From positions 1,550,001 through 1,614,000 of the forward strand of contig NZ_CP091792.1 of assembly GCF_022024115.1 (NCBI RefSeq): 64,000 nt of DNA, in the 5' to 3' direction. Numbering within the stretch: position 1 is the stretch's first letter; every line of letters starts with the position of its first letter. The notes under the pieces were generated by a model. The model made no database searches. It had not been told where the DNA came from and saw only the letters and a list, made by a program, of their open reading frames with translations. Shown in pieces: positions 45,146-61,828 of the stretch. A program made the translations under genes and the position numbers. This stretch comes from Prevotella communis (GTDB lineage Bacteria > Bacteroidota > Bacteroidia > Bacteroidales > Bacteroidaceae).

Positions 45146-45176
45146 CAAAGGTACGACTTTTTTGCGAAATTGCAAA
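45146..45176 (-). promoter_or_regulatory. Promoter of the AAA ATPase gene
   Basis: On the minus strand, TTTG at 45176-45173, a 19-nt spacer, TACCTTTG at 45153-45146. The -33 is part of the dyad TTTGC-GAAATT-GCAAA (45161-45176). Confidence 0.78.
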
Positions 45177-45284: not shown

Positions 45285-47675
45285 TTAAAGCTTAAATGCC
45301 ACCGTTCCCATCAGGGTGCGACCCGGATAGCGATAGGGGATATATGACGTTCCACCAATCTCGTAGCAGGTGTTAAACACATTGTCGCAATCGAGTGAGA
45401 GCTGCATGGTCTTGTTGTAATCGTACTTCAGACGCAGGTCAACCAGGGCACGTTCGTTGAGATAGAAATCTTCGCTACCTGTGACACGTGAATTGGCCTT
45501 GTTGAGCGTACGTGAGGTATAGCGCAGATTGCCCGATAGCCACAAAGAGTGGTTCTTCTTGTCAAACAGGCGCTGCTCGCAAGCCAAGTTGGCCGTTACC
45601 GACGGTATGCTATAGATGTGATGATCGTAGTAATAATACTGTTCAGCACTCATGGCCCGTTGGAAAGTGGTGTTGAGTCGTGAACGGAACGCCGTCGTTT
45701 TGTAACTCAGTTCTGTTTCGATACCTGCCACCTTAAGACTACCCGAGTTTACATATTTCGGCGCATTCAGGTCGGTGCTCTGGTTATTACAGATGAGGTC
45801 TGTCAAGTGGTTGTAGAACAAGTTGACATCATAATCAAAATGCCCACCTATAGACCCCAGAAAGTCCAGCTGTATAGCATTCATATATTCCGGCATCAGG
45901 TCCTCACTACCTTTGTACGTGTTCTGCGTGTTCTGACGATAAAAATAGGGAGCATCTACAAACGAGCGTGAGTACGACGCCTTGACGCTGAACGTCTTAG
46001 AGGGAACATAGACCAAGGCGACACGGGGCGAGAATGCCTCGACGCTCATATCGTTTCGACGATACTTCTTGTCGTAGCGCAGACCAGCATTGAGGATCAG
46101 CTGGTCGGTGAAATAGTGCTTATTCTGAATGAAACCCGAGATGCTCTTCTCATGGCCCACATTTAGCTGATTAGGGGATTCTGGTGTGGTTACTATAGTG
46201 ATGTTACTATACTCCTCTCCGAGGAAGAACTCGTTGACAGGGATTCTGTAGAATTCAAACTGTGCACCAGCCAGCAGGTTACCATGCTGATTACCTATCT
46301 TATAGTTGGAGGAGTACTTAGCCGTTGCACCAATAGTATATTCTTCCCAGTTGTCATCCTGATACACACCATGATAAAGACGCATAACCGGTTTTCCGTC
46401 TGGACCTATCTTTGGGGTACCACTGCCATCAGGATTGAACTCTACGTTATACATAGAATCAGAAACAACCTGATAGTCTTGAAACTGATACCAGTCACCA
46501 TAGAGCGCTATATTCAAGTTGGAACTGCCAAAACTCTTGTCGTATTCGAGATTGAGATGGTTCTCATTGACAGAATAGCCAGGGGTGACCCCAAAGAACT
46601 GACGATAACGGTCGTAGTCATATGTTTGAGCATACCATGAATACTGAGGAACCAGTTTTCCGTATTTGCGACTCACCATCAGGTTGAAATCATTGAGTTT
46701 TATGGTGACTCCTATGTCGTAAGACGGTTTGCCCTCGTAACGGCCCACATAGGCATAGCCATCGTGTGGGGTTTGTGAATAGCCAGAACCAGCAGGAATC
46801 GTGATACGTTCTCCTTTTGAGGTGTAGAGAGAAGCCCATGCCATCACGTCGGCTCCTAGGAACGTTGTTCCAGCTGTGAGGTCGGCACGATGAGTACCAA
46901 AAGAGCCATAGCTGTATTTGCCCTTGATGCCATTGATCTCATTACCACTTTTTGTGATAATATTGACCACAGCCGTCAGAGCCACGTTACCATAAAGTGA
47001 TGAAGCAGGACCTCGCAGCACCTCTATATGGTCAATCTTCTCCGTGCTGATGGCATAGTCGAGCTTACCGTTGTTGGTAGAACGGGCATTCAGTCGGTGA
47101 CCATTCTCCATCACAAGAATCTTCTCCTGACCATTCGTATATACACCATGCATGGCCACATTAGCGAAAGCATACGTACAAATCTCACTCATGCCAGGCA
47201 CATAGGCAGCCAGTATCTGTCCGATGTTCCTGTTGTTGCTCAGCATATCAATCATCTCGCGAGTGATGATGGTTACAGGTACAGGCGCCTCCTCGATATT
47301 CTCTTCCTGACCAGATGCCGTCTTAATGGTAGTACCCCGACCTTCGCGCAGTCGGTTTATCATATCGACAAAACGCACAGGATCTTCCAGTGAACCGAAG
47401 AAATACTTGTTTTCGTTCAGCAGCAGTCCTGCGTAATACTCCGATTGTTCTGGCTGGTCGAGCGCCAGACAGCAGAGCGACATCAAACGATATGCTTTCT
47501 GCCTGTCGGTACCAAGAAAAGCTTTCTCATTGCGTTTCAGCAAAACGAGCGCAGAGTCAATACGACCTATCTTATAGGCATTTTCCGCCTGAACATAGAC
47601 ATCCTGAGCTGATGCAGGCATTGCCAGAAGCGTGAGGGCGACGACTGTGAGGTATATTCTTAGATGATTAATCAT
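45285..47675 (-). CDS. TonB-dependent receptor with TPR-like N-terminal domain
   Basis: A 796-residue outer-membrane receptor with a signal peptide (1-23, ending ASAQ). In place of the usual CarboxypepD-like domain, residues ~24-115 form a helical, TPR-like segment (YVQAENAYKIGRIDSALVLL). The plug domain is next (EEAPVPVTIITREMID near 126-141; IEVLRGPASSLYGNVALTAVVNI near 216-238), then a 22-strand-type barrel. There is no SusD partner. It follows the NRPS stop by 27 nt, so I infer that it imports, or senses, the NRPS product or a complex of it. A vitamin or metal-complex receptor with no link to the NRPS is the alternative. Confidence 0.88.
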   Translation of the reverse strand: MINHLRIYLTVVALTLLAMPASAQDVYVQAENAYKIGRIDSALVLLKRNEKAFLGTDRQKAYRLMSLCCLALDQPEQSEYYAGLLLNENKYFFGSLEDPVRFVDMINRLREGRGTTIKTASGQEENIEEAPVPVTIITREMIDMLSNNRNIGQILAAYVPGMSEICTYAFANVAMHGVYTNGQEKILVMENGHRLNARSTNNGKLDYAISTEKIDHIEVLRGPASSLYGNVALTAVVNIITKSGNEINGIKGKYSYGSFGTHRADLTAGTTFLGADVMAWASLYTSKGERITIPAGSGYSQTPHDGYAYVGRYEGKPSYDIGVTIKLNDFNLMVSRKYGKLVPQYSWYAQTYDYDRYRQFFGVTPGYSVNENHLNLEYDKSFGSSNLNIALYGDWYQFQDYQVVSDSMYNVEFNPDGSGTPKIGPDGKPVMRLYHGVYQDDNWEEYTIGATAKYSSNYKIGNQHGNLLAGAQFEFYRIPVNEFFLGEEYSNITIVTTPESPNQLNVGHEKSISGFIQNKHYFTDQLILNAGLRYDKKYRRNDMSVEAFSPRVALVYVPSKTFSVKASYSRSFVDAPYFYRQNTQNTYKGSEDLMPEYMNAIQLDFLGSIGGHFDYDVNLFYNHLTDLICNNQSTDLNAPKYVNSGSLKVAGIETELSYKTTAFRSRLNTTFQRAMSAEQYYYYDHHIYSIPSVTANLACEQRLFDKKNHSLWLSGNLRYTSRTLNKANSRVTGSEDFYLNERALVDLRLKYDYNKTMQLSLDCDNVFNTCYEIGGTSYIPYRYPGRTLMGTVAFKL

Positions 47676-47702
47676 TTCATAAAAACAATTATACGTTACA
47701 CA

Positions 47703-50700
47703 TTATATTTGCGACAGACAGAAGCTGACGTTATTTGTATCCAACAGACGGAAGTGGCTGGTTGACACAGAATGGACGCAGAGGTGAGGCAACAAGCGGC
47801 GCCAGGAGGCATCGCTATCAGACTTCAGTTCCTTGTCTGCCATCTGTGTGGCTTCGAAATAATCCACACTACCACTATAGAACGGCATGGGCGAATGATC
47901 CTCTATGGGATTGATATACTCCTCCATTTGATGGAGCCTGCCAACAACCTTAGAGATATCGAAATAGGTGTCGAACAGCAACACACGTGGAGTCTGATTT
48001 GTTTCCTCGTGCCACTTGACTGCACAACGATAGCTGAACTCGCCACCAAAGCTATGGCCCACGAAGACGCTGACCTTGGCATCAGCAGGGAGACTATGGC
48101 GAATCAGTTCAATATAGCCATCCACTATTTCTGACTTGTTCTTGCCAGCAAACAATGTACGGATATGCTCCTGAAGGGGTTCGATGACAAAGACGGAATA
48201 GCGCTGACATAAACGGGTGATCAGCGGCTGCAACAAATGGTAGGAAGTGAGTCCTTGAACGACCACGGCAACAGGTTTCGAGGCATCGTAGCCCTGAGCC
48301 CAGTCGCCAACAGTGGTTTTGTGGGCTGCTATCTTCTTAATAGTCTTTAACCGGAGTATGTCATTGACTTTCAGATTGAAGTCGGCTTCCTTAGCCAATA
48401 CTGCCAGTTTAATGGCATTGAGTGATGACAACCCCAGCAGAGTCAGGTCATCAGTAATACCCACCTGTTCGATACCCAATATCGTCTTAACGATGTCGAG
48501 CAAGACCTTCTCCCGTTGATTTGAAGGTGGTTCTGTAGTACCATGACTCAATGTCATACTCGTTGCCAGTTCTGTGAGCTGCCGATGATCAATTTTTCCA
48601 TTGGGAGTCATCGGCATTCTTTCCAGTTGTACAAGCTTCGAGGGCACCATATAAGAAGGCAGTGAGTCTGTCAGACTCTTGCGTAATACCTTTGGACTCA
48701 TCTCACTGCTGTCGGAAACATAAAAGCCCATCAGGTACTGAAGGTTGTTATGTTTGTTCACAATTACTGCCGACGTCTGAATACCAGGCAAACTATTAAT
48801 GCAGCTCTCTATTTCGCCCAGCTCTATTCTGTAGCCATTAATCTTCACCTGATTGTCTATGCGTCCGTGGAATATCAGTTCGCCGTCCTGGCTCCACTTC
48901 ACCAGATCGCCTGTGCGATACATCTTCTCGCCTGGCAGGAAGGGACAGTCGACGAAACGCTCACGAGTTTGTTGCTCTCGTTGCCAATAGCCACGAGCCA
49001 ACTGCGGTCCCACCAGACATAACTCACCCATAGCGCCCCAGGGGACAAGACGCCCTTCTGGACCGACAATCAGCGACTTGCTGCCAGGAACGGGATGCCC
49101 AATGGGAATATTCTCGTATGTACAATCAGGATCAACGACGTGATAAGAAGAACAGACCGTAAATTCTGTAGGTCCGTAACCATTGATAACCTTGACACCC
49201 GTATTTCGGTTGACATGCAGATTCTCGCCTCCAAGGAACAGATAGCGTAGCGACAGGTCCTGACTCTCAAGCAGTTCCATTCCTATCTGCGTACTCATTG
49301 TCAGACCCGTAATTTGGTTGTCGGTAAGATAGCGGCTGAAAGCCACTATGTCATAACGCATGGCCGATGATATGATATGAATCTGTGCACCACATGTAAG
49401 TGGACCAAACAAGTCAGGTATTGAGGCGTCAAAGCTGAAGCTGGGGTGAAGTGCACACTTGTCTCCAGCCTTTAATTCTTCCATAGGAATCAGCCAATTC
49501 AGCATGGCACAGAGCGAATGATGTTCTATCATAACACCCTTAGGTTTGCCTGTAGTGCCCGATGTGTAGATGATATAAGCCAGCGATTGCGCTCTACTAT
49601 AGTCTAATGGCGAAACAGTAGAAGAAAAATCGAAATGATCTAATAAGATAATATGTCGCTGACTATCATTCGACCTTAAATCATGTTTCTCTGCCAGTTT
49701 ACTGGTGGTTATCAGGAATCGGGCATTCAGGTCGTTCAACATGAAGTCAATACGAGCCTGTGGATAGTCAGAGTCCATCGACAGATATGCGCCTCCAGCC
49801 TTGAATACTGCGAGGACAGCAATCACAAACTCTTTACGGCGTGGAAGCATCAGTGCCACAAAAGCGTCGTTAGCAACTCCAGCCTTGACAAGTGATGCAG
49901 CCAGACAGTCAGACTGTCTGTCCAGTTCTGCGTAAGTGATAGAAGATAGCTTATCGACAACAGCTATCGCATCGGGAGTGTGTGAAACCTGGCGCTTGAA
50001 CAGCTGGATAAATGTCTCTGACGCATCTCTTTTGACTTCCTTCCCGCAGCCCATGGTTAGCAGATTCTCCATATCTTCATGCGACAGAAGAGGAAGCGAC
50101 ATCAAAGTCACCTCATCATTGTCAACAGCCGCAAAGGTCTTAATCAGGTGAATGTAGCTTTGCAAAATCCTCTTCACAAAAGCATCTGAATAGATGTTGC
50201 TGTGGTATTCCGCATGAAGCGTGAGTTGGTTGCCATTTCTGGAAATCTCGAATGCCAGTTGCTCGCCGGTGGCATTATCCATCAGAGGTATCTGACAGTA
50301 TGGCGCTCCGCCAATACGGTTTGGAAATTCGATGTCGCCCTGATAGGCAAAGAGAATCTGACTGCCAATATAGTGATTCATGGCTCTGAGCTCGGCAAAC
50401 GAATAAATATCGTTTGCCATGCTGCCCATCAGTTGCTCTTTGATAGTCTGTAGCAATGTTCTCAGCGTTGTCTGCTTGTCCCATTTCTCATAGACGGGCA
50501 ACGTCTTTACCAACATCGAAACAGTACGGTCCAATCTTAATTCATGACGACCGTGATAGATGGTAGCGAACAGAGACTCTTGAGAATAGGTATAGTGTCC
50601 CAACAGATAACCAAAGACTGCAATCGTAAATACATTAGGAGTCACACCAAAACGTTGGCACGCCTCGTTCAGTTCTTGTACACTCAAACCCAGGTCAGCC

Positions 50701-52997
50701 TCCTGTTTTCCAAATGTGGTAGCAAGTCCGTTGCTGTCGGCAACGGGCAGGGATGTGATTTCCAGACTTCCAAACACATTTGTGTTCCACTCTTTGGCAT
50801 CACTGTAAGTTTTTGTTTGTCGTAGGGCCTCTTCCTCCTGCGCTACCTCAAAGCCACTGAAAGACTCACCTTCCAGATGCTCACCATCATAAGCTTTCTC
50901 TAAGTCGGATAGTACAACGCCCATAGACATTCCATCGAAGATAACATGATGGAAGTCCATGAAAAGATAGGCATTCTTCGGCGTAGCAATGATACGGATA
51001 CGGAACAGTTGGTCATGAAGCAAGTCAAAGGGTTGCATCAGTTGAGGCTTTAGATAGTCAAATTCCTCTTCCGAAACATATTCTATCTCCTGCCTATAAC
51101 TCTCGTCATCATTCCTGTGCTGACGGGGATTGCCGTTGCTGTTGATAAACAGGCGAGTCTTCACAAAGGGATGGGCCTCTACTACGGCCTCAAGGGCTTT
51201 TGCCAGACGAGGTAGATCCAGCCCGGGGGCCAGTTTGAAAAGCGTGCTGTTGTTATAGACCACCTCGCCCTGTCGAGCCATGCATGCAGCAAAGATTCCC
51301 AACTGCGTCTGACTCAGTGGGTAGTCCGCCAGGCGTTCAAAACTGAACTCGCCCTTCTTGCTGATGGCTTCGGCTATCCTGCGTGGCGTGCGATGCGTAT
51401 AAATCATTCGGGCGTCGATAGACAGGTCGGCACACAGCGTCTGCAACTTCATCACACGGATGCTGTCGCCACCCATCAGGAAGAAGTCCTCATTGACACC
51501 TACCTGCGTATGGCCCAGTGTACGTTCGAAGGCAGCACACAACTTCGCCTCTGTATCGTTCTGAGGAGCCTCGTAGGGCGCACGCTCTATGACGTCGTCC
51601 TCCACAGCAGGCGACTGCAGACTCTTGCGGTCGGTCTTGCCGTTCATGTTGAGCGGAAAACTCTCCATCTTCACGAAATAGACCGGTACCATGTAGGCAG
51701 GCAACTTCGACGTGAGGTAGTCGATGATTTCCTGCTCCGTGACGCCCGTCTTCGAGATATAATAGCCGCAGAGATACTGACGCTTATTACCAGAAGTAAA
51801 ACCCTTGACGATGGCGTTGTCGATGCCAGGAATCTTCTTGAACACCGTCTCCACCTCACTCGGTTCTACGCGCTGCCCGTTGATTTTCACCATCCAGTCC
51901 TTTCGGTTCACGTATATCAGGTTGCCGTCTGGCCGAGCCCTGACAATATCGCCTGTATGAAGCCATCCGCCCCGATACAGTTGTGCCGTACGCTCCGGGT
52001 CCTTATAGTAGCCAGGCGTCAAGTCGCCCCGATAACACAGTTCTCCCTCCTCGCCGAAAGGCACCTCGTTGCCGTCCTCATCCTGTACACTATATATATA
52101 AGGTTCTACAGGGATACCGATAGGCGTATTGTCGTAGGGTTTGTCAATCATAAACGTGCAGCCGATGCCAGCCGTCTCCGTCTGACCACAGTAGTTGACG
52201 AGCTTATACCCCTTAGGGCCTACACCCGACACACGCTCAGAAGCAGTAAACACCACCTTTAATGCCTGTGATTTATTCTGGAAATAGGGTAGTACCGAAG
52301 GAGGAATAAATACAAACTCGATACGCTGCTCGGCCAGGAAATCCTCCAGTTTACGAATATCCATCCTGATATTCTGAGGCACCACGTTGACGGTCTTGCC
52401 CCTGGTGATGAAATCATAAATCAGTTTGCAGGCCACAAAAAACATTGGCGCCGTGACAGCCATCACCGACACATCCAAATCCTGGAACATCTTGTCAGGG
52501 AATAGCGGAATGCCAAACGAGCGAAACGAGTGGAGCACACCCTTTGGCTGCCCCGTACTGCCTGACGTATAGAAGAGGGCGTTGATGTCGTCCTCACCAG
52601 GCAGTGCCGACGGTTCTTTTGGTTCTGTGGATGCCATCTCGCTCATCACCTTCTCATCAATCAACAGGGGCGATTCGCTATGCTCCATAATCTGCTGAAT
52701 ACGAGACTCCGGAAACTGGTCGCCCATGGGAATGATAGCATGACCTGCCAGCCAGATGCCAATCTCAGCAGCTATATACTCCATACTCGTGGGCAGACAG
52801 ATGCCGATGAAAGAGTGGGCGGGCAACCGACGCTTGTCGATATAGCCCACAACCCTGCAAGCCATGATATACAGCTCTTCGTAGGTTGTTTCCCGTTCGC
52901 CAGCATGGTCAATGATAGCCGTCTTCTGAGAACAATTCTCAAAAGCATCCACTATCCATTTTATAAATAATGCGGTAGTAGAGTCTGTTTTAACCAT
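47703..52997 (-). CDS. Two-module nonribosomal peptide synthetase, A-T-C-A-T-TE
   Basis: A 1764-residue NRPS. A1 is at ~10-463 (YTSGSTGQPKG near 143; A10 MNGKTDRK near 451), T1 carries Ser512 in MGGDS, C is at ~560-973 with HHVIFDG at 683-689, A2 at ~996-1478 (YTSGTTGKPKG near 1144, FSFDAS near 1187, NGYGPTE near 1272), T2 has Ser1525 in LGLSS, and TE at ~1574-1764 has Ser1649 in GHSFGG and His1748. A1 lacks the Asp that holds the alpha-amino group, so its substrate may not be an ordinary amino acid. By eye the A2 pocket is D-A-P-T-F-G-G-V-C-K, nearest to aromatic codes. No reductase or PPTase is nearby. The start is taken as ATG 52997 (AGGAG 14 nt upstream); a TTG at 53033 is the alternative. 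Confidence 0.93.
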   Translation of the reverse strand: MVKTDSTTALFIKWIVDAFENCSQKTAIIDHAGERETTYEELYIMACRVVGYIDKRRLPAHSFIGICLPTSMEYIAAEIGIWLAGHAIIPMGDQFPESRIQQIMEHSESPLLIDEKVMSEMASTEPKEPSALPGEDDINALFYTSGSTGQPKGVLHSFRSFGIPLFPDKMFQDLDVSVMAVTAPMFFVACKLIYDFITRGKTVNVVPQNIRMDIRKLEDFLAEQRIEFVFIPPSVLPYFQNKSQALKVVFTASERVSGVGPKGYKLVNYCGQTETAGIGCTFMIDKPYDNTPIGIPVEPYIYSVQDEDGNEVPFGEEGELCYRGDLTPGYYKDPERTAQLYRGGWLHTGDIVRARPDGNLIYVNRKDWMVKINGQRVEPSEVETVFKKIPGIDNAIVKGFTSGNKRQYLCGYYISKTGVTEQEIIDYLTSKLPAYMVPVYFVKMESFPLNMNGKTDRKSLQSPAVEDDVIERAPYEAPQNDTEAKLCAAFERTLGHTQVGVNEDFFLMGGDSIRVMKLQTLCADLSIDARMIYTHRTPRRIAEAISKKGEFSFERLADYPLSQTQLGIFAACMARQGEVVYNNSTLFKLAPGLDLPRLAKALEAVVEAHPFVKTRLFINSNGNPRQHRNDDESYRQEIEYVSEEEFDYLKPQLMQPFDLLHDQLFRIRIIATPKNAYLFMDFHHVIFDGMSMGVVLSDLEKAYDGEHLEGESFSGFEVAQEEEALRQTKTYSDAKEWNTNVFGSLEITSLPVADSNGLATTFGKQEADLGLSVQELNEACQRFGVTPNVFTIAVFGYLLGHYTYSQESLFATIYHGRHELRLDRTVSMLVKTLPVYEKWDKQTTLRTLLQTIKEQLMGSMANDIYSFAELRAMNHYIGSQILFAYQGDIEFPNRIGGAPYCQIPLMDNATGEQLAFEISRNGNQLTLHAEYHSNIYSDAFVKRILQSYIHLIKTFAAVDNDEVTLMSLPLLSHEDMENLLTMGCGKEVKRDASETFIQLFKRQVSHTPDAIAVVDKLSSITYAELDRQSDCLAASLVKAGVANDAFVALMLPRRKEFVIAVLAVFKAGGAYLSMDSDYPQARIDFMLNDLNARFLITTSKLAEKHDLRSNDSQRHIILLDHFDFSSTVSPLDYSRAQSLAYIIYTSGTTGKPKGVMIEHHSLCAMLNWLIPMEELKAGDKCALHPSFSFDASIPDLFGPLTCGAQIHIISSAMRYDIVAFSRYLTDNQITGLTMSTQIGMELLESQDLSLRYLFLGGENLHVNRNTGVKVINGYGPTEFTVCSSYHVVDPDCTYENIPIGHPVPGSKSLIVGPEGRLVPWGAMGELCLVGPQLARGYWQREQQTRERFVDCPFLPGEKMYRTGDLVKWSQDGELIFHGRIDNQVKINGYRIELGEIESCINSLPGIQTSAVIVNKHNNLQYLMGFYVSDSSEMSPKVLRKSLTDSLPSYMVPSKLVQLERMPMTPNGKIDHRQLTELATSMTLSHGTTEPPSNQREKVLLDIVKTILGIEQVGITDDLTLLGLSSLNAIKLAVLAKEADFNLKVNDILRLKTIKKIAAHKTTVGDWAQGYDASKPVAVVVQGLTSYHLLQPLITRLCQRYSVFVIEPLQEHIRTLFAGKNKSEIVDGYIELIRHSLPADAKVSVFVGHSFGGEFSYRCAVKWHEETNQTPRVLLFDTYFDISKVVGRLHQMEEYINPIEDHSPMPFYSGSVDYFEATQMADKELKSDSDASWRRLLPHLCVHSVSTSHFRLLDTNNVSFCLSQI

Positions 52998-53029
52998 TCG
53001 TATGGATTTTTCTCCTGTGAAAGAAGGAA

Positions 53030-53851
53030 TCAATTTTTAATTGGAATTATAAAAGTGAAACTCGTGCCCTGTCCCAGCGTTGACTCGAACGACAGTTTGC
53101 CTCCGTGTTTGTTTTCTACGATATCGCGTGTGATGCCCATGCCAAGACCAGTGCCTTGTCCTACGGGTTTGGTGGTAAAGAAATTCTCATAGAGATGCTG
53201 CTTCACCTCGTCGCTCATACCCTCACCATTGTCGGCCAGCGAGATGGTGAGTTGCTTGCCGTCCGACTTCACGCATACCGTTACCTCCGGCTGATAGTCA
53301 GCACCCGTTGCCTCGGCCTTCTTCTTTACAGCATAGCAGGCATTGTTCATCACGTTGAGTACGGCACGACTCAGATCCTGTGGGATGACCATAATCGGAG
53401 GCAGACCCTCCTGATAGTTCTCACGGATAGCTATGTTAAAACTCTTATCGTTGGCACGCATGGCGTGATACGACAGCCACACATACTCCTTGACCAGGTG
53501 ACAGATGTCCGTCGGGATAAACTCGTTTTCCTTGCCACGAGAAATGAGCAGTATGCCCTGAATGATGCTGATGGCCCGTTCGCCATGCTCCACAATCTTA
53601 GACATATTCTCTTTCAGGTCGGCCACGATATCCTCCACCTCCTCACGGTCGTCCTCACTCAGTTTATCTTCGTTGTCCTCTACAATCTCAGTCAGATCAC
53701 TCAGCAACTTGTTCGACATCTTACTGAAATTAATGACGAAATTCAAGGGGTTCTGAATCTCGTGGGCAATGCCGGCGCTGAGCAGTCCTAGTGATGCCAG
53801 CTTCTCCTGTTGCTTCAGTTGTTGCCTGAGGTTTTCCATTTGCTTCTCCAT
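53030..53851 (-). CDS. Soluble sensor-less histidine kinase
   Basis: A 273-residue kinase with no membrane segment. A short coiled coil (1-20) leads into HisKA with the intact H-box LLSAGIAHEIQNPLNFV (phospho-accepting His near residue 30). HATPase_c follows: N-box NNACYAVKKK near 167-176, G1 DNGEGM near 207-212, and G2 TGLGMGIT near 233-240. It directly follows the membrane sensor, whose own H-box lacks the His, so the two may act as a pair. Nothing obvious as its receiver other than the REC-PP2C protein upstream. Confidence 0.88.
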   Translation of the reverse strand: MEKQMENLRQQLKQQEKLASLGLLSAGIAHEIQNPLNFVINFSKMSNKLLSDLTEIVEDNEDKLSEDDREEVEDIVADLKENMSKIVEHGERAISIIQGILLISRGKENEFIPTDICHLVKEYVWLSYHAMRANDKSFNIAIRENYQEGLPPIMVIPQDLSRAVLNVMNNACYAVKKKAEATGADYQPEVTVCVKSDGKQLTISLADNGEGMSDEVKQHLYENFFTTKPVGQGTGLGMGITRDIVENKHGGKLSFESTLGQGTSFTFIIPIKN

Positions 53852-53859
53852 AATATGTA

Positions 53860-56688
53860 TCAGTTTTGAAGAATTGGTAACGTAATGGTTATTATTGTAT
53901 AATTATCTTTCTCGGACGCTATCTGGATGTCGCCACCGTGATCCTGTATCACTTCATGACTCAGATAGAGACCGATACCTGCTGCCTCACCCGTTGGCTT
54001 CGTGGTGAAGAAGGGGTCGCAGACCTTGTCAATGATGCTTTCCTCTATGCCGATACCGTTGTCGCGAACGGTGATGGTAGCAAACGCGTCGTCCTGAGTC
54101 AGCGTGACAGCCACCTCCGGCGTATATTGCGTGCGTGCTGCTTTCTTCTCCAGCGCATACATCGCATTGCCTAGAATACTCATGATGGTCATACTGATCA
54201 GCTCTGGATTACCATTGATATTGACACTTGTCTCAGGTATAGAGAAAGGTGCCTGGATGTTGAACGCAGCAATCTTCTCCTTGAAATAGTTGTGTAGCAT
54301 CTCTTCGTCCTGTCTCAGAATACTACAGAGGTCTATTGCCATCTTGCCACCCGTGCGGTCTTTCAGGATTTCCTCCATCGCCTTCAGCGTGCGTGTGGTG
54401 TTCAGTCCGTGCTGTTCCACCTTCTCCAGGTTCTGACTCAACATCTCCAGCACATCCAGCGTGTCCTCGAAGTTCTCCTTGTCCATGTGCTCCTCCTCGT
54501 CCTCGATATTCGCCTTGAGGTCTTTCAGCAGTCCGCACGACAGTTTCGAGAAATTATTGATATAGTTCATCGGGTTGAGAATGCGGTCAATCAAGCCCTG
54601 CGTCAGTTTACCGGCCGTAGCCATCTTCTCCTGACGAATCAGTTCGTGCTGCGCCTCGCCCAGGTCTTTGAGGGCCTGCTCCAGACTCTTTGACTTCTCT
54701 TCAATCTCGTCCTTCTGTTTGACCACCTCGGCCGTGCGCTCCTGCACAATACTCTCCAGACGCATCTTTTCCTTCTCCAACCGGTGCAGACGGAAACGTA
54801 CGAGGAGGTAGATCAGGATACCAACCACAACCAGGTAGAGAATCATCATGTACCATCGCTGGTAGAACGGCCGCTGAATCTCAAATTTCAGGGCTTCTGC
54901 CTGCGTCACCTGTCCGTAGGCATCCATCGCCTGCACCTCGAAGGTGTATCTTCCTGGTTCCAGACTTGGGAACTTAGCCTCCTGCTCGTTGTCCCATGCC
55001 GACCACGACTGATTGTTCAACCTGTAGCGATAGCGTGTCTCCTTGATCAGGATGGTGTTGTCCAGTGCGAAGGTAAACTCCAGGTTGCGCTCATCGCTGC
55101 TGAGTCTCTGCAACTTGCTTGGCATCTTACCGTAGCCACCCCACAAGATGCTGTCGCCATTCAGCTTGACGCTGCGGATAAACAGTTTTGGACTGCTATC
55201 CAGTATGGGGTCAGAGAATTTCACCTTATAGGTAATCAGACCAAAGTCGCCACCCAAGATGAGCCTGTCCCTGTCGTAGAACAACATATCGCGTACATTA
55301 TATTCGCTGATAGCGTTCAACTGCTGCGTGAATCGCTTGTCCTTGATGCCATCCTTGATGCAGTAAAGCCCTCGTCCGTCGCTATTTGTGAGCCATGTGG
55401 CCCCGTCCTTGTCCAGATAAGCCATCTGAGGGTAGGGGATGGGGGCTGTCTGGTTGGCACTGATGGTGAGCAGTTCCTTGTTCGTTGGCACAATCATGCC
55501 CGGCACGGTCTTGTCGCCCTCCAGCACCACCTGATGGAACGCCTTCTCTGCCTGCTTCTTGCACCAGATGATGCCATACAGATTCTGCAGCCAGATGGTC
55601 TCCTTCTTATCTATATAAATATGTGTCACGCGCTCCAGGTCGGCTATCTTCTCCCTGCGACCGTTGTCGCCGTTCATGAACACACCCTCCGACTCACCAG
55701 TATAGAATCCGCCCTGCGCCTCCTTCACCGACATGGTGTTGTGGTCGTTCAGTCGCTCGGCCACCGTCTTCTCCTTCATCAGGTACAGACCGTTGCTCGT
55801 AGCCACCAGCAATCCCTTGGGTGTGGTAATCATTTGCCAGCAAGGGTGGGTCATATCGGCCACCTGACGGAAGAATTTTCCATCCATGAAAAACAGTCCG
55901 TTGGCAGTGCCCACGTAGAGCGTTCCCTCATGAAAGATGATAGACAGTACCTCGCCACGGAGCCCCTCTTGCGCTGTGGCATGCGTGTAGGTAGTAGGTA
56001 CGGCGATGCAGAACAGGCCGTTGTTCGTGGCGCCCCAAAGGATGCCTTTGCCGTTGTAGGCCAACTTATTGATAGCGTTCGAGCACAGACCGTTGTCCTC
56101 CGTAATCAGATAGGCCGTCTGCCCGTTGCTCAGAATATTCACGCCGTTGGCCCCCGTTGTCTGCGCCTTCAGTCCGAATCCTATGTCAATAAACTCGTTG
56201 TCGGGCGCCGTCTCCAGCAGGCGCTGCGAGGCCTCCTTCACCTCGCCCTTACTGAGCGTGTAGCCGTAGCCGTCCTCCAGTTGGAAGACCATCTGGTTGC
56301 CGTTCTCCCAAATCCTGGTGACCACACCCTGAAAATTACCTTTCTTCACGGCATTATGCAGCATCAGCTCACCCTTGTCGTTGCTCTCTATGAAGCCCAG
56401 GTAGTTGTAGCCGCCAGCCCAGATCGTACCCTTCCGGTCGCGATAGAGGGTCGTCACACGGGTGATGTTGGGCGTATGGATGATGCGCCATTCTGCCTGG
56501 TCGTAATACAGCAGACCTTCAAAGTTGGCCACATACACAAACCCCTTGTCGTCTGTGGTGATGTCGAAGTTGCGGTTGTGCGCCTGATACTCCTCAGCGC
56601 TAAAGTTGCGCAGGAATGGAATTCCCTGTGTGAAAGAATAGGTTGAGGCTGTCAGAAGGGCGAAGAGTATAAAGAGCCGTTTATTCAT
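53860..56688 (-). CDS. Propeller/Y_Y_Y membrane sensor with degenerate H-box
   Basis: A 942-residue sensor. It has a signal peptide (1-20), N-terminal two-component propeller repeats (~25-500), a Y_Y_Y domain (~505-605, ending YTFEVQAMDAYG), one membrane helix (~613-634), a long coiled coil, then a HisKA-like segment and a HATPase domain (NAMYALEKK, DNGIGIE, AGIGLYLS). The H-box reads LTQGLIDRILNPMNYINNF: Asp stands where the phospho-accepting His should be. The ATP site looks intact. A strong AGGAGG precedes the ATG. It overlaps the previous gene by 4 nt and ends 8 nt before the soluble kinase. I infer that it senses a periplasmic ligand and works through a partner kinase. Confidence 0.88.
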   Translation of the reverse strand: MNKRLFILFALLTASTYSFTQGIPFLRNFSAEEYQAHNRNFDITTDDKGFVYVANFEGLLYYDQAEWRIIHTPNITRVTTLYRDRKGTIWAGGYNYLGFIESNDKGELMLHNAVKKGNFQGVVTRIWENGNQMVFQLEDGYGYTLSKGEVKEASQRLLETAPDNEFIDIGFGLKAQTTGANGVNILSNGQTAYLITEDNGLCSNAINKLAYNGKGILWGATNNGLFCIAVPTTYTHATAQEGLRGEVLSIIFHEGTLYVGTANGLFFMDGKFFRQVADMTHPCWQMITTPKGLLVATSNGLYLMKEKTVAERLNDHNTMSVKEAQGGFYTGESEGVFMNGDNGRREKIADLERVTHIYIDKKETIWLQNLYGIIWCKKQAEKAFHQVVLEGDKTVPGMIVPTNKELLTISANQTAPIPYPQMAYLDKDGATWLTNSDGRGLYCIKDGIKDKRFTQQLNAISEYNVRDMLFYDRDRLILGGDFGLITYKVKFSDPILDSSPKLFIRSVKLNGDSILWGGYGKMPSKLQRLSSDERNLEFTFALDNTILIKETRYRYRLNNQSWSAWDNEQEAKFPSLEPGRYTFEVQAMDAYGQVTQAEALKFEIQRPFYQRWYMMILYLVVVGILIYLLVRFRLHRLEKEKMRLESIVQERTAEVVKQKDEIEEKSKSLEQALKDLGEAQHELIRQEKMATAGKLTQGLIDRILNPMNYINNFSKLSCGLLKDLKANIEDEEEHMDKENFEDTLDVLEMLSQNLEKVEQHGLNTTRTLKAMEEILKDRTGGKMAIDLCSILRQDEEMLHNYFKEKIAAFNIQAPFSIPETSVNINGNPELISMTIMSILGNAMYALEKKAARTQYTPEVAVTLTQDDAFATITVRDNGIGIEESIIDKVCDPFFTTKPTGEAAGIGLYLSHEVIQDHGGDIQIASEKDNYTIITITLPILQN

Positions 56689-58295
56689 TTCTCACCTCCT
56701 TTCACACTATTGATAAACATCTTGTAAGAGGCACTCTTACCTATATAGTTATCCCATTGCTCCTCCGTGAGCAGATGCGCCTTCAGTCGGTTTACCATCA
56801 CATCGACCGATACCAACGTCTCCGTCAGGTTGCCGTTGTTATCGCCCGACCACAGGTGCGTCTTCTTGTTATTGATGTTGAAGTAGCGAATCCATCCGTC
56901 CGACTGGTCCGACTGGAACAGTTGGATAGGTTCCACCTTCTCGTTTTCGTAGAGCCACAGGTTCATCTTGCCGTCGTAGCTGGAAGAGTAGAGTTGGTTG
57001 CCGTTCACCTTCAGTCGGGTGATGCGCGAACGATGGCCCACCAGTTCCTTTATTCTCCCGTTCTTTTCCTCCACATATATCTTGCCGTCGCTGGTGCCGT
57101 AGGTGTTGATACCCTTGTTGTCAGAGCGTGCAAAAGCCGTGACGATGCCCTTTACGGCAGTGGGCTTGCGCTTACTATCCAACTTGTCTGTGCTCACCAT
57201 CTCGTGCATATATCCCTGTTCGTCGAAGAGATACGGATGCTTGTTGATGCGCCCCAGGGCCGTGATCTTGGCGTTCACACGTAGGGTGCCCTGCTGCTGG
57301 TGAGTCTTCGTATTAAAGAGTGCCACACTGTGTTCACCCACCACCACCAGCATGTCGTCGTTATACATATCCAGCGCCATGGGGTGACTGATGTCTGAGA
57401 GTACCACCTGCTGCGCCTTGCCGTTGGCCGGGATGACGACCAGATGGCCCGTGTGACTGGCGGCATAGATGGTGCCAGCCTTATCCACATACACGCTACG
57501 GAAGTCCAGTGCGCTGTTAGAGAACAGGTTGTGCGTCTTTAGTTTATCATCCTGATTCACATGACGGTATATCTCGCCATAGCTACTCACCGTTACCAGC
57601 TCTTTCTCTTTGTTGGGAACGAAGAATATGCCCGTGATGCCACCCTTGTGCAGGTTGTTCCAGGTCGTCTTACTGTCGCTCACCTCCATCAGGGCCTGAA
57701 TCACGGAGACGTGATACAGGTCGTTCCTGCTGCCGTAGGTCTTCGTCAGCCAATACGACGCAAAGACCAACCGCTTAGCCAGTTCCTTATTGCCGCCCGA
57801 CTGATACTGATTAGAACCCATGGAGGCCAGCGAGCGTCCCAGCGCTATGTAGCTCAGGGTATCAGCCACGCGCTTGTTGAGCTCTGCCGTCTTCCTCTGG
57901 TCGTTGGCTATCTCGGCCTGCCGTTTAGCCTCCTTACTCTGAGCCTCGGCATTGTCGCGCTCCTTTCGGGCTATTTCTTCCGATGCCCTCGCCTGGTTTT
58001 GGGCGATGATAGCGCTCTGCTTCTCCTCCTCAGCAATCTCGGCCTGCTTCTTTGCCTCGACGGTACGCTCATCGCTGATGCGTTTCTGTTCGTAGGCAAT
58101 CTCCTCCATCTGCTTGTTGATGCTTTGGTCTATCACGGCCCGGTGCTCTTTCTGACTCATCACGGCCAACTGCTGTTCCAGTTCGGCCGTCTTCTCCTTC
58201 TCGAAGTAGTAGCAGCTAAAGCCCACGGCGCATCCTGTGCCCAAAGCGGCACAGGCAATGCCCCAAAGCATATTATTTCTAATCAGCTCTTTCAA
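56685..58295 (-). CDS. Membrane-anchored coiled-coil/beta-propeller protein
   Basis: A 536-residue protein: one membrane helix (~9-30), a long Lys/Glu/Gln/Ala-rich coiled coil (~35-145), a helical linker (~146-205, NKELAKRLVFASYWLTKT), then a WD40-like beta-propeller (~215-500; GGITGIFFVPNKEKELVTVSSYGEIYRH, GHRSRITRLKVNGNQLYSSSYDGKMNLW). No enzymatic motif. The start is TTG 58295 (6 nt after the REC-PP2C stop) or ATG 58271; both keep the helix. The propeller side is probably cytosolic or periplasmic depending on topology, which cannot be fixed here. A scaffold or sensor role is inferred. Confidence 0.75.
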   Translation of the reverse strand: MKELIRNNMLWGIACAALGTGCAVGFSCYYFEKEKTAELEQQLAVMSQKEHRAVIDQSINKQMEEIAYEQKRISDERTVEAKKQAEIAEEEKQSAIIAQNQARASEEIARKERDNAEAQSKEAKRQAEIANDQRKTAELNKRVADTLSYIALGRSLASMGSNQYQSGGNKELAKRLVFASYWLTKTYGSRNDLYHVSVIQALMEVSDSKTTWNNLHKGGITGIFFVPNKEKELVTVSSYGEIYRHVNQDDKLKTHNLFSNSALDFRSVYVDKAGTIYAASHTGHLVVIPANGKAQQVVLSDISHPMALDMYNDDMLVVVGEHSVALFNTKTHQQQGTLRVNAKITALGRINKHPYLFDEQGYMHEMVSTDKLDSKRKPTAVKGIVTAFARSDNKGINTYGTSDGKIYVEEKNGRIKELVGHRSRITRLKVNGNQLYSSSYDGKMNLWLYENEKVEPIQLFQSDQSDGWIRYFNINNKKTHLWSGDNNGNLTETLVSVDVMVNRLKAHLLTEEQWDNYIGKSASYKMFINSVKGGEK

Positions 58296-58301
58296 TGCTT
58301 T

Positions 58302-59465
58302 TTACTTTCGTTTAAATGATAATAAGGTGATGTCGTCACTCTGAGGTGCGCCGTCGGTAAAGGCCTTCACACTAGCCAGGATATTGCTAATGGTCTCCTG
58401 ACAGTTCAGTCCCTTCAGCGCCTCCAGCGTCTGTTTCAGTCGGGGCTCACTATACTCCTCCAGGGCATTGTTCACGGCCTCGTTCACACCGTCGGTATAC
58501 ATCACCAGCATGTCGCCCTGCTGCAGTTGCAGCGTGTTGGCGCTGAAGTCCAGTCCCTCTATAGCACCAATCATGCAGTTATTGCTCATAGGCAGCGCCT
58601 CCACCTGTCCGCTGGCATGGAGCAGGTAGGGCGAGTTGTGCCCGGCGTTACAGTAGTTCACCTCGCCCGTCTTCGTGTTGTAGATAGCGTAGAACACGGT
58701 GACAAACATGCAGTTCACCGACTCCTTGCAGAGCAGTTCGTTGGCCCGTGTCATCACCTCGTTGGGTGCTATGCCCTGCATGCCGATAGCACGTATCAGC
58801 GTACGACTCACAGCCATGAAGATGGCTGCCGGCACACCCTTACCACTCACGTCGGCCATCACGAATCCAATCCTGTCTTCATCAATGCGGAAGAAGTCGT
58901 AGAAGTCGCCACCCACGTCCTTCGCAGGTGTCATCGAGGCAGCCACGTCGAGGATAGCCTCAAACTCAGGGAACGGAGGGAACACCCTGGGCAGTATGGC
59001 CTGCTGTATCTCGCCAGCCACAGCCAGGTCGGTCTTCAGCGACTCCAGTTGCGAGTGCTCCTTTTGTGACTCTTTGATATAATTAATCTGCTCGATAGCC
59101 TTCTCAATGGTGACACTCAGGTCGTCCAGGTCTATAGGCTTTGTGGCAAAGTCGAACGCACCGTTGTTCATGGCCTGACGGATATTCCCCATGTCGCCAT
59201 AGGCACTCACCATGATACACTTCATGGCAGGGTTCTGCATCTCATTGATTTTCGTTAGCAGCGTCAGTCCGTCCATCTCCGGCATGTTGATATCGCTCAG
59301 TATGATATCAAAATCTTTGTGCTGAAGCATCATGGTCAGTGCTTCCACACCATTGTGAGCAAAGTGGAACTCGTACTCTCCTTTACGGATCTTTCTTCTG
59401 AAATATTGTGTCAAGAGCAACTCGAGGTCCATCTCGTCATCGACACTAAGAATTTTTGTTGGCAT
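58302..59465 (-). CDS. Response regulator with PP2C (SpoIIE/RsbU-like) phosphatase output
   Basis: A 387-residue protein. REC domain (1-~125) with the acid pair in VDDEMD, the phospho-accepting Asp in ILSDINMPEMDG near 55-66, and the Lys in ATKPIDL near 108. A coiled linker (~126-160) leads to a PP2C domain of the SpoIIE/RsbU type: GGDFYDFF near 197-204, ADVSGKGVPAAIFMA near 217-231, MYTDGVNEA near 326-334 and SDDITLLSFKR at the C-terminus. Such proteins dephosphorylate an anti-anti-sigma (STAS) factor when the REC is phosphorylated, but no STAS or RsbW-like gene is nearby. First gene of the NRPS operon. Confidence 0.92.
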   Translation of the reverse strand: MPTKILSVDDEMDLELLLTQYFRRKIRKGEYEFHFAHNGVEALTMMLQHKDFDIILSDINMPEMDGLTLLTKINEMQNPAMKCIMVSAYGDMGNIRQAMNNGAFDFATKPIDLDDLSVTIEKAIEQINYIKESQKEHSQLESLKTDLAVAGEIQQAILPRVFPPFPEFEAILDVAASMTPAKDVGGDFYDFFRIDEDRIGFVMADVSGKGVPAAIFMAVSRTLIRAIGMQGIAPNEVMTRANELLCKESVNCMFVTVFYAIYNTKTGEVNYCNAGHNSPYLLHASGQVEALPMSNNCMIGAIEGLDFSANTLQLQQGDMLVMYTDGVNEAVNNALEEYSEPRLKQTLEALKGLNCQETISNILASVKAFTDGAPQSDDITLLSFKRK

Positions 59466-59510
59466 AATGTTTATCTAATTTTTACTTTATATTTCGTTTA
59501 TTTTCGATAA

Positions 59511-59553
59511 CGGATTTAACGGATTTAACGGATTTAACGGATTTAACGGATTA
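59511..59553. repeat. Tandem 9-bp repeat upstream of the NRPS operon
   Basis: Four perfect CGGATTTAA units (59511-59546) plus a partial fifth, in the gap between the pyrophosphatase stop and the response-regulator start. A 9-bp unit would not keep helical phase for many repeats; it could be a repeated regulator site or a slippage array. Confidence 0.88.
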
Positions 59554-59561
59554 TTTTTTTT

Positions 59562-61748
59562 CTACGAGAATATCACCGTTAGTCCGGCCATCACGATGCT
59601 TACCATCGACATCAGTTTGATGAGGATATTCAGCGATGGGCCCGACGTGTCCTTGAAGGGGTCGCCTACGGTATCGCCAACGATGGTGGCCTTATGGGCA
59701 AACGAACCCTTGCCGCCGAAGTTGCCTTCCTCTACCATCTTCTTGGCATTATCCCATGCGCCGCCGGCATTGGCCATGAACACGGCGAGGGTGAACCCGC
59801 TCGACAGTCCGCCAACGAGCAGTCCCAGCACACCGGCAATACCCAGCACACAGCCAACGACGATAGGAATGGCGATAGCCAGGAGCGACGGTACAATCAT
59901 TTCGTGCTGGGCGGCACGTGTGGATATCTCTACGCAAGAACCATAGTCGGGCGTGCCTGTACCTTCAAGTATGCCCTTGATCTCACGGAACTGTCTGCGC
60001 ACCTCTTCCACCATCTTCTGGGCGGCACGTCCCACAGCCTCCATCGTGAGTCCACAGAACAGGAAGGCGGCCATGGCGCCGATGAAGGCACCTACCAGCA
60101 CGCGAGGGTTCATCAGGTTCACCTGGAAGTAGTTCATGAAGTCGGGTATGGTAGCGTTGATAGCGTCAATCTCCTCACCGGCCAGGTTCACGATGATATC
60201 GCCAGAGCGGTGCATCGCAATCTTCACCTCCTCGATATAGGAAGCCAGCAGGGCCAGGGCCGTGAGGGCGGCAGAACCAATGGCGAACCCCTTACCGGTT
60301 GCGGCGGTGGTGTTACCAAGAGCATCGAGTGCATCCGTACGGTGGCGCACCTCTTCACCCAGCTCACTCATCTCAGCGTTACCGCCTGCATTGTCGGCAA
60401 TAGGACCGTAGGCATCCGTAGCCAGGGTGATACCCAGCGTAGAGAGCATACCCACGGCAGCAATACCGATACCATAAAGACCTTGCGACAGGGCGCTGGC
60501 ATTCATGTCCATCACAAAACCATTGGCGCAGAGATAACTCAGCATGATGGCCACACCGATGGTGACCACGGGGATGCAGGTTGACATCATTCCCGTGCCG
60601 ATACCCTTGATGATGACCGTGGCAGAACCCGTAAGACCAGCCTCCGAGATTTTCTGCGTGGGTTTATAGGAATGTGAGGTATAGTATTCCGTAGCTTGTC
60701 CGATGATGACACCTGCGGCCAGTCCTGTAATCACGGAGAACGAGAGCCCCAGCCAGTTGTCTATCTGGAGCAGATAGAGAATTCCGAAGGTAGCCGCGGC
60801 AATCAAGACGGCCGACACATTCGTGCCCAGCGACAACGAGTGTAGCAGGTCGCGCATCGTGGCACCTTCCTTGGTGCGGACAAGGTAAATGCCGAAGATA
60901 CTCAGGAAAACGCCTACGGCAGCTATCAGCATGGGGGCGATGACAGCTTTCAACTGCATCTCGCCGGAAGCGGCAAAGGCTACGGCACCCAGGGCTGCTG
61001 TAGAGAGGATACTGCCACAGTAGCTCTCATACAGGTCGGCACCCATGCCGGCCACGTCGCCCACGTTGTCACCTACGTTGTCTGCGATGGTGGCGGGGTT
61101 GCGTGGATCGTCCTCGGGGATGTCGGCTTCCACCTTTCCCACGATATCAGCGCCTACGTCGGCAGCTTTCGTATAGATGCCGCCGCCCACACGGGCAAAC
61201 AGCGCCTGTGTTGAGGCACCCATGCCAAAGGTCAGCATCGTGGTGGTGATGGAGATGAGTCCGTCGGGATCAAAATAATTCAGGATGATAAACCATACTG
61301 CGATATCAAGCAGTCCCAAGCCCACTACGGTGAGTCCCATAACGGCACCGCTGCGGAAGGCTATCTTCAGTCCGCCATCCAGACTCTTACGGGCTGCGTT
61401 AGCCGTACGGGCTGAGGCGTAGGTAGCCGTCTTCATGCCAAAGAAACCTGCCAGTCCACTGAAGAAACCGCCCGTCAGGAAAGCAAACGGTACCCATGGG
61501 TTCTGTACACCAAAGCCATAGGCCATCACAGAGAAGATGATGGCAAGGATGATGAAAACAATCAACACCACTTTGTACTGCTGTTTCAGATAGGCCATTG
61601 CGCCACGTCTTACGTGACCGGCAATCTCTATCATACGGGGCGTGCCTTCTTCCGCCTTCATCATGCTGCGGAAGAAACTGTAGGCCATGCCAAGGGCCAC
61701 TACTGAGGCAATTGGAACGAGCCAAAAAGCAATAGGTATATTCATCAT
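59562..61748 (-). CDS. hppA: K+-dependent membrane-bound pyrophosphatase (ion pump)
   Basis: A 728-residue polytopic protein (about 16 helices) that hydrolyses PPi and pumps H+ and/or Na+ across the inner membrane. The catalytic segment DDPRNPATIADNVGDNVGD is near 215-233, with GADLYESY after it. LGNTTAATGKG near 476-486 has Ala and Gly at the two positions that are Lys and Thr in K+-independent enzymes, so it should need K+; the pumped ion is not certain but Na+ use is common in this group. It removes the PPi that the pfp enzyme and biosynthesis produce. Own consensus promoter; either ATG (61748 or 61745) may be used. Confidence 0.95.
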   Translation of the reverse strand: MMNIPIAFWLVPIASVVALGMAYSFFRSMMKAEEGTPRMIEIAGHVRRGAMAYLKQQYKVVLIVFIILAIIFSVMAYGFGVQNPWVPFAFLTGGFFSGLAGFFGMKTATYASARTANAARKSLDGGLKIAFRSGAVMGLTVVGLGLLDIAVWFIILNYFDPDGLISITTTMLTFGMGASTQALFARVGGGIYTKAADVGADIVGKVEADIPEDDPRNPATIADNVGDNVGDVAGMGADLYESYCGSILSTAALGAVAFAASGEMQLKAVIAPMLIAAVGVFLSIFGIYLVRTKEGATMRDLLHSLSLGTNVSAVLIAAATFGILYLLQIDNWLGLSFSVITGLAAGVIIGQATEYYTSHSYKPTQKISEAGLTGSATVIIKGIGTGMMSTCIPVVTIGVAIMLSYLCANGFVMDMNASALSQGLYGIGIAAVGMLSTLGITLATDAYGPIADNAGGNAEMSELGEEVRHRTDALDALGNTTAATGKGFAIGSAALTALALLASYIEEVKIAMHRSGDIIVNLAGEEIDAINATIPDFMNYFQVNLMNPRVLVGAFIGAMAAFLFCGLTMEAVGRAAQKMVEEVRRQFREIKGILEGTGTPDYGSCVEISTRAAQHEMIVPSLLAIAIPIVVGCVLGIAGVLGLLVGGLSSGFTLAVFMANAGGAWDNAKKMVEEGNFGGKGSFAHKATIVGDTVGDPFKDTSGPSLNILIKLMSMVSIVMAGLTVIFS

Positions 61749-61796: not shown

Positions 61797-61828
61797 CAAA
61801 AGTATCACTTTTTTTTTATAAATACAAA
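61797..61828 (-). promoter_or_regulatory. Promoter of hppA
   Basis: On the minus strand, TTTG at 61828-61825, a 20-nt spacer, and TACTTTTG at 61804-61797. Nothing comparable is seen before the NRPS operon 2.3 kb downstream, so readthrough from here is possible. Confidence 0.75.

Follow-up and report, generated by a model that had tools for sequence, protein, structure and literature searches.

The window analysed here is a stretch of 64,000 nucleotides of the Prevotella communis contig NZ_CP091792.1 (positions 1,550,001 to 1,614,000), taken from a Prevotella communis-like genome that consists of a single contig of 3.57 Mb. Six genes on the minus strand form one run in it, encoding four regulatory proteins, a nonribosomal peptide synthetase (NRPS) and a TonB-dependent receptor. 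From the first gene to the last they are:

58302..59465, minus strand: REC-SpoIIE (PP2C) response-regulator phosphatase, the first gene, with the REC Asp and the PP2C metal motifs present
56685..58295, minus strand: WD protein with an N-terminal helix (predicted signal anchor), a long coiled coil and a WD40-type beta-propeller (predicted to be periplasmic)
53860..56688, minus strand: Reg_prop/Y_Y_Y periplasmic sensor with one transmembrane (TM) helix and a cytosolic kinase-like domain
53030..53851, minus strand: soluble histidine kinase (HisKA and HATPase) with the acceptor His present
47703..53033, minus strand: NRPS with the domain order A-T-C-A-T-TE (A, adenylation; T, thiolation; C, condensation; TE, thioesterase), start TTG 53033 or ATG 52997
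45285..47675, minus strand: TonB-dependent receptor (Plug and TonB barrel) with an N-terminal extension of about 100 aa ahead of the plug

The places and domains that a sequence-only reading had given to these six genes were borne out by the open reading frame (ORF) list and the domain search. Its gap values of 6, -4, 8, about 30 and 27 nt also match those computed from the ORF coordinates (6, -4, 8, -4 or 32, and 27 nt), the gap between kinase and NRPS being -4 with the TTG start at 53033 and 32 with the ATG at 52997, which agrees with the 1764-aa cluster P0007. The sensor had been described as a propeller/Y_Y_Y protein; those domains were seen, but the description was incomplete, as a kinase-like domain (HATPase) is also present. 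The genes of the operon are 99-100% identical to their counterparts in P. communis E15-14 (L021). The run is real and conserved, its motifs are intact and it is built from known parts; gene content, order, recurrence, motifs and the parts list are what is directly established. The strongest new facts are the spread of the cassette without the synthetase, a sensor with Asp in place of the acceptor His, and the recurrent association of this NRPS family with proteins of partner switches.

The loading module of the NRPS (residues 1-560) was searched in 398 genomes of the genus and was matched at E <= 1e-60 in 40 of them, of which 19 (the own genome included) were at least 45% identical (E <= 1e-140) and the others 30-34%. 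Identity reached at least 53% in 15 of the 19 NRPS-family genomes; G365 was unreadable upstream, and in the remaining 14 the sensor and the soluble kinase lie directly upstream of the NRPS. When the six-gene order was sought in these genomes, all four regulators were found ahead of the NRPS in the 12 of 12 whose contig reaches far enough (own included), with REC-PP2C and the WD protein first; two genomes with shorter contigs agree as far as readable, and the TonB gene comes next after the NRPS wherever the contig continues. Moreover, the whole cassette is present in the named assemblies L024 and L026, outside the 398-genome sample. The proposed arrangement, regulators first and then synthetase and receptor, is therefore kept in relatives, so the six-gene order is not due to chance, and the same recurrence rules out a gene set unique to the window's genome. 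That these are unrelated neighbours brought together by accident is hardly credible, being contradicted by the order, strand and tight spacing kept in dozens of cassettes, and nothing was found in its favour. The view that NRPS genes are uncommon in this lineage did not hold, as 9 of 35 other same-genus genomes match this NRPS at E <= 1e-100.

The idea of one conserved unit stands for the close relatives (>=53% identity): every readable one has the regulators ahead of the NRPS, so NRPS and TonB genes without regulators in most relatives, the finding that would have refuted the idea, did not turn up there. It does not extend to more distant NRPSs. NRPSs at 45-47% identity (G358, G223, G337 and G308) have no cassette in the stretch read; a MATE-kinase gene stands beside the NRPS in the first three, and STAS and SpoIIE genes do so in G308. 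NRPS loci of other families and phyla are likewise without the cassette, and the regulators and TonB often occur without this NRPS. SpoIIE genes were found in 259 of the 398 genomes, and the WD gene in 133, one third of those sampled (E <= 1e-100), against 19 for this NRPS family, copy numbers being lower bounds (at most 3 candidates per genome scored for NRPS and WD, 8 for SpoIIE and 10 for HATPase_c_2). All 133 WD-bearing genomes have SpoIIE, and 132 have HATPase_c_2.

Twenty further REC-PP2C loci, at a distance from this NRPS family, were chosen by hand among the top-scoring SpoIIE rows. The WD and sensor genes accompany the phosphatase in 19, TonB in 19 (one cut by a contig end) and the soluble kinase in 14, while L165 has none of the four. 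In four of the 20 (L160, L168, L173 and L177) a different synthetase lies just after TonB. The comparison of L168 with the window is instructive: the pyrophosphatase gene that precedes the run is 96% identical, REC 91%, WD 84%, the sensor 73% and the AAA_14 ATPase that follows the run 96%, against 49% for TonB, and its synthetase is an unrelated A-T-C-A-T protein placed after TonB instead of before it. Synthetase and receptor thus differ at what seems to be the same site, with the sensing genes retained. A full cassette is also present in L208, from another Bacteroidales family. Since the regulators and TonB are common without this NRPS, the NRPS is not the centre of the set; the sensing genes look like the common core and the synthetase like optional cargo. 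These results define a recurrent sensory cassette of rumen Prevotella.

The Reg_prop sensor has a signal peptide and a single TM helix at 614-632. In each of the 34 cassettes that could be read (34 of 34), an Asp that is part of a DRILNP motif occupies the position of the acceptor His in the sensor's kinase domain; two fragments, the second of L167 and a frameshifted one of L040 (at 367), are not counted. The ATPase boxes of this domain are intact in the window and present in the other cassettes except one split copy. The acceptor His of the soluble kinase is kept in 29 of 29 cassettes, the L026 copy being cut before the final ATPase box. A check of the two-component parts finds His and ATPase in the soluble kinase and Asp in REC, the sensor itself being without an acceptor His, and from this we infer that sensor and soluble kinase are a pseudokinase-kinase pair. 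The motifs flanking the acceptor site are alike in the two kinases (NPLN), and for this reason the kinase domain of the sensor likely arose by duplication followed by acceptor loss. Pseudokinase-kinase control is found in DivL/CckA, which likewise pairs a sensor lacking the acceptor His with a competent kinase; unlike in that system, the sensor of the window has Asp for His and is a periplasmic propeller protein. The invariance of this substitution provides a clear biochemical prediction.

The AlphaFold model of the WD protein (pLDDT 84, pTM 0.70) consists of a helix, a coiled coil (63-165) and a propeller (209-494), and it matches WD40 folds in a PDB search. A basic and then hydrophobic stretch occurs at the N-terminus in 14 of 14 relatives shown, an arrangement that suggests a signal anchor with the propeller in the periplasm. 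The type IX secretion WD40 protein of PMC5053529, as far as the consulted part of that paper describes it, is unrelated. Covariation was calculated in two sets, one of 12 and one of 29 cassettes, and the cassettes within them are not independent. The WD propeller and the sensor domain gave rho 0.87 in the 29 cassettes, and a partial value of 0.76 with REC and the kinase domain controlled for, as parts of a single complex should.

The TonB protein is made up of a signal peptide, about 100 residues, a plug and a barrel, and the domain search matched no known signalling domain in the extension. In the 12 cassettes its similarity follows that of the NRPS thioesterase (rho 0.80, reached by 0 of 2000 shuffles), with lower values for the soluble kinase (0.60), the last A domain (0.36), the loading A domain (0.33) and the sensor (raw 0.37, reached by 15 of 2000 shuffles). 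Across the 29 cassettes the extension, plug and barrel gave raw values of 0.12 to 0.45 against WD and sensor, and TonB against the two sensors gave partial rho of -0.12 to 0.12 when REC and the kinase domain were controlled for. Such near-zero values leave a receptor-to-sensor contact unsupported by the covariation test, and covariation of TonB and sensor beyond background is ruled out by them in this set. The earlier suggestion that the receptor recaptures or senses the product gained no support: TonB tracks the thioesterase and not the sensor pair beyond background. An extracellular signal may trigger synthesis, as the same reading supposed.

A related question is whether the run forms an autoinducer loop, in which the product would be exported, brought by TonB to the periplasm and sensed there by the propeller pair, so switching the operon, while cassettes without NRPS would eavesdrop. 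The gene set and order would fit such a loop, as would the correlation of TonB with the thioesterase, the different NRPSs that adjoin TonB in 4 of 20 other cassettes, and the related TonB receptor beside nSTAND-TM-WD40 proteins in distant loci. However, the sensor covaries with neither the loading (0.09) nor the last A domain (0.11) in the 12 cassettes, its raw correlation with TonB is weak and disappears after control, and the cassette is often without a synthetase. Moreover, thioesterase and TonB are neighbours, so their correlation can be explained by linked transfer of adjacent genes. We regard the loop as rather unlikely.

A TonB receptor related over the N-terminal part adjoins nSTAND-TM-WD40 proteins in 8 of the 10 distant loci (1.5-kb flanks), the extension alone being recognised in 6 of those 10. 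With the cassette counted, the pairing of receptor and WD propeller is thus seen in two lineages and looks old. The nSTAND1-TM-WD40 proteins that adjoin related TonB receptors (L198-L207) belong to other Bacteroidales families. They share with the cassette a related coiled coil and WD propeller beside a related receptor, but carry an NTPase in place of the kinase/PP2C output. TonB surface signalling is also known from pyoverdine and FecA, and in pyoverdine a synthetase is under its control. The cassette resembles these systems in having a TonB receptor with an N-terminal periplasmic extension and adjoining regulators; it differs from them in having no anti-sigma/extracytoplasmic function sigma pair and an extension without a known signalling domain.

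The core motifs of the A, T and C domains of the NRPS are present. Its release domain is a thioesterase region, whose match is below the Pfam cut-off, yet GHSFG is present. A MAFFT alignment of 36 hand-picked loci, anchored at what we take to be the GrsA positions, gave the A-domain codes. Asp235 of NRPS A domains holds the amino group of the substrate. Among the loading domains of the family, all 30 that were readable (30 of 30, from several phyla) have V, I, M or G at the residue aligned with GrsA Asp235, a count that leaves out L048 (unreadable), L080 (ordinary first domain), P0001 (same as L021), the second ORF of L051 and the four non-family synthetases of L160, L168, L173 and L177. The later A domains keep Asp235 in 53 of 53 readable cases (one unreadable L072 domain left out). 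As the loading domain lacks the Asp that holds the amino group, the starter is probably an acyl acid. The second A domain of the window's NRPS has the code DAPTFGGVCK, which presumably resembles aromatic codes. An acyl starter, one further A domain and a thioesterase make an N-acyl amino acid, linear or cyclised, the likely product, which the thioesterase would release. The two-unit compound proposed earlier fits in its number of units, which the A-domain codes would make an acyl group and one amino acid. The genome has one match to the phosphopantetheinyl transferase superfamily (205-aa frame).

A terminal reductase was looked for by domain search and no NAD_binding_4 match was found in the window's NRPS, the GHSFG thioesterase region being present instead, and this end points to an acid or cyclic product and not an aldehyde. 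A reductase-ended relative of the family does exist (L027). The window's NRPS scored 715 bits against the AusA model NF047350 (cut-off 2500). Ruminopeptin of R. bromii is a dipeptide aldehyde, according to the consulted part of PMC12327764. With the ruminopeptin cluster and AusA the window's NRPS shares a modular, gut or commensal character; unlike ruminopeptin and the aureusimine AusA, it is thioesterase-ended. If the product bound a metal or a cofactor and TonB recovered it, the run would serve siderophore-like or nutrient scavenging. The best NCBIfam models for TonB are indeed hemin, siderophore and B12 receptors, all far under cut-off, but no chelating chemistry is evident in an acyl group plus one amino acid with no extra tailoring domain. 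In addition, standard A domains of NRPSs are the best matches of the loading domain among solved structures, and a salicylate ligase appears only far lower in the list. Scavenging of this kind is improbable.

Of the SpoIIE matches in the genome, REC-PP2C alone is strong (185 bits; cut-off 25). The genome has one HATPase_c_2 protein over cut-off and one short STAS protein, two further STAS matches falling in 404- and 563-aa frames. The first two are encoded side by side:

L107:8551-8976: RsbW-like HATPase_c_2 kinase, outside the cassette, same genome
L107:9014-9316: short STAS antagonist gene, adjoining the HATPase_c_2 kinase

The PP2C would probably act on this RsbW/STAS partner switch. Partner switching of the SpoIIE/RsbU-RsbW-RsbV type (SpoIIE-SpoIIAB-SpoIIAA) is treated in PMC8256260, of which a part was consulted. 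As in that system, PP2C, HATPase_c_2 kinase and STAS antagonist all occur in the window's genome; unlike there, the PP2C is fused to REC and would be driven by the kinase pair, the genes of RsbW-like kinase and antagonist lie apart from the cassette in P. communis, and no sigma-factor target was identified. The REC and PP2C architecture is also that of RssB-type regulators (NCBIfam NF045505), but the window's protein scores 119.5 bits against a cut-off of 700. HATPase_c_2 and STAS genes adjoin the cassette in L163 and L178, and HATPase_c_2 alone in L171. They lie upstream on the same strand in L208, with isoamylase and DJ-1 genes between them and the cassette.

The kinase and STAS genes of the window's genome are followed by a RelA/SpoT-domain gene (L107:8551-10371), a recurrent row: at least 10 of 18 loci, this genome's among the 18, have such a gene beside kinase/STAS genes of this kind, which points to an alarmone enzyme governed by a partner switch. 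This neighbour raises the possibility that the PP2C has another target and that RsbW/STAS is an unrelated switch for the RelA/SpoT-domain gene. Its frequency there, the 600 kb that separate the pair from the cassette, and the lack of a STAS gene in the stretch read of any NRPS-bearing cassette shown would agree with this; against it, the pair holds the sole over-cut-off HATPase_c_2 in a genome with one strong SpoIIE, and it adjoins the cassette in L163 and L178. A different target is less likely, yet far from negligible.

We consider it probable that the run encodes a sensory cassette acting across the envelope, with a kinase relay and a PP2C switch, and carries the synthetase as optional cargo. 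A cue would be sensed by two propellers of predicted periplasmic location, that of the WD protein and the sensor's Reg_prop domain. As Asp replaces its acceptor His, the sensor would need the adjacent soluble histidine kinase and work through it. That kinase would then phosphorylate the REC domain of REC-PP2C, and the PP2C would dephosphorylate a STAS antagonist held by the RsbW-like kinase. Where present, the NRPS would couple an acyl starter to one amino acid and its thioesterase release the product, and the adjacent TonB receptor may bind or take up a related ligand.

Several observations weigh against this scheme. The N-terminal helix of the window's WD protein is under the hydropathy threshold used, and the near-zero partial correlations of TonB with the two sensors have been given above. 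Six of the 20 hand-picked loci have no soluble kinase gene; five of these six have the sensor, and all five retain the Asp, which rules out that Asp-for-His is limited to loci with an adjacent soluble kinase gene and means that their partner kinase must lie elsewhere. Two partial SpoIIE matches in the genome (29.5 and 28.4 bits) also exceed the cut-off of 25, and the HATPase_c_2/STAS pair is unlinked to the cassette in P. communis. The co-occurrence of SpoIIE with HATPase_c_2 speaks for the partner-switch link, since 252 of 398 genomes have both, 7 only SpoIIE, 3 only HATPase_c_2 and 136 neither of them; the figure is inflated, however, by frames whose length would allow the two domains to be fused (as in L027 and L032).

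A more ambitious proposal, which we find quite unlikely, is that Bacteroidota cells signal to one another in a new way. The NRPS would make an N-acyl amino acid, and this would re-enter through TonB, be read by the twin-propeller pseudokinase complex and act on a PP2C switch with (p)ppGpp-type output; cassettes without NRPS would listen in and synthetase swaps would change the signal.

In the literature search, made in open-licence papers, no description of the gene set of the cassette was found, and nothing on point for Prevotella partner switching or a TonB/WD40 pair. A rumen survey reports 5,346 NRPS clusters in 8,160 rumen genomes (PMC8241843, consulted in part), a further reason to reject rarity of NRPSs in the lineage, and a term search of its main text, as far as available, gave no mention of TonB or transporters. 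Serine phosphatases occur among dCache receptors in the rumen according to the consulted part of PMC9540692. The SpoIIE protein beside the NRPS in L032 has a dCache-type domain, below the dCache_1 cut-off.

Relatives of the NRPS in other phyla were taken from the best 80 named loci of at least 580 matches, which include Lachnospiraceae, Oscillospiraceae, Muribaculaceae, Fibrobacter and Synergistaceae. After 45 of the 80 loci lacking 6 kb on both sides and then four Prevotella cassettes were left out, 31 were counted. In raw counts, SpoIIE lies within 8 kb of the NRPS in 25 of them, STAS within 6 kb in 21 and a MATE-HATPase_c_2 fusion within 3 kb in 18. At least one type of partner-switch neighbour is present in 26 and at least two types in 23; none of the three is near the NRPS in five (L048, L053, L069, L073 and L074). 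This gut NRPS family, found in several phyla and tied to partner-switch proteins, offers a handle for activating silent gut synthetase clusters. MATE transporters fused to an RsbW-like HATPase_c_2 stand beside NRPS genes in several phyla (L022:17805-19574 and L027:8222-9970, for example), and a partner switch may control export by them. Within the Prevotella clade, such a fusion follows TonB in seven loci (L022, L024, L026, L056, L153, L155 and L156) and is absent from seven (L021, L040, L149-L152 and L154). It was not found in the window's genome, which gave only two MATE matches (21-22%) and the free kinase. Distant Prevotella NRPSs (L138, L141, L142 and L146) lie within about 10 kb of 725-784-aa HATPase_c_2 frames, as compared by eye. 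The long HATPase_c_2 frames at G349:C18, G127:C81, G205:C6 and G351:C34 are probably SpoIIE fusions.

The window was also scanned for the Bacteroidota promoter pattern TTTG-N17-23-TAnnTTTG, giving 10 matches against 0.7 expected and none inside the six-gene run. The features flanking the run are:

59508..59552, strand not applicable: 9-bp tandem repeat ahead of the operon, in 5 copies here and about 2 in strain E15-14
59562..61748, minus strand: H+-pyrophosphatase gene, 96 nt upstream of the operon
61797..61828, minus strand: Bacteroidota-type promoter match upstream of the pyrophosphatase
45146..45176, minus strand: promoter match of the Bacteroidota type, after the TonB gene and before AAA_14
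43933..45120, minus strand: AAA_14 ATPase gene, recurrently found downstream of the cassette and preceded by a promoter match of its own

Of 33 cassettes, 16 have a promoter of this pattern in the 250 nt ahead of REC-PP2C, in 15 cases at a distance of 60-87 nt. As the 96-nt gap between pyrophosphatase and REC-PP2C in the window contains no match, read-through from the pyrophosphatase into the operon is possible. The 9-bp repeat lies in this gap; its copy number differs between strains, and the repeat may therefore be a variable switch. A scan for sigma-70 promoters and terminators was uninformative (promoter-like 28 against 18.2 expected; terminator-like 7 against 11.1). AAA_14 is probably on a separate transcript; its inclusion in the operon's transcript was rejected on its own promoter match, without proof. 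Fifteen loci (L021, L024, L026, L040, L149-L152, L154, L159, L168, L171, L173, L176 and L177) have this gene after the cassette and in the same orientation, and it is 85-96% identical in the 12 loci compared besides L021, even where the sensors are only about 40-50% alike.

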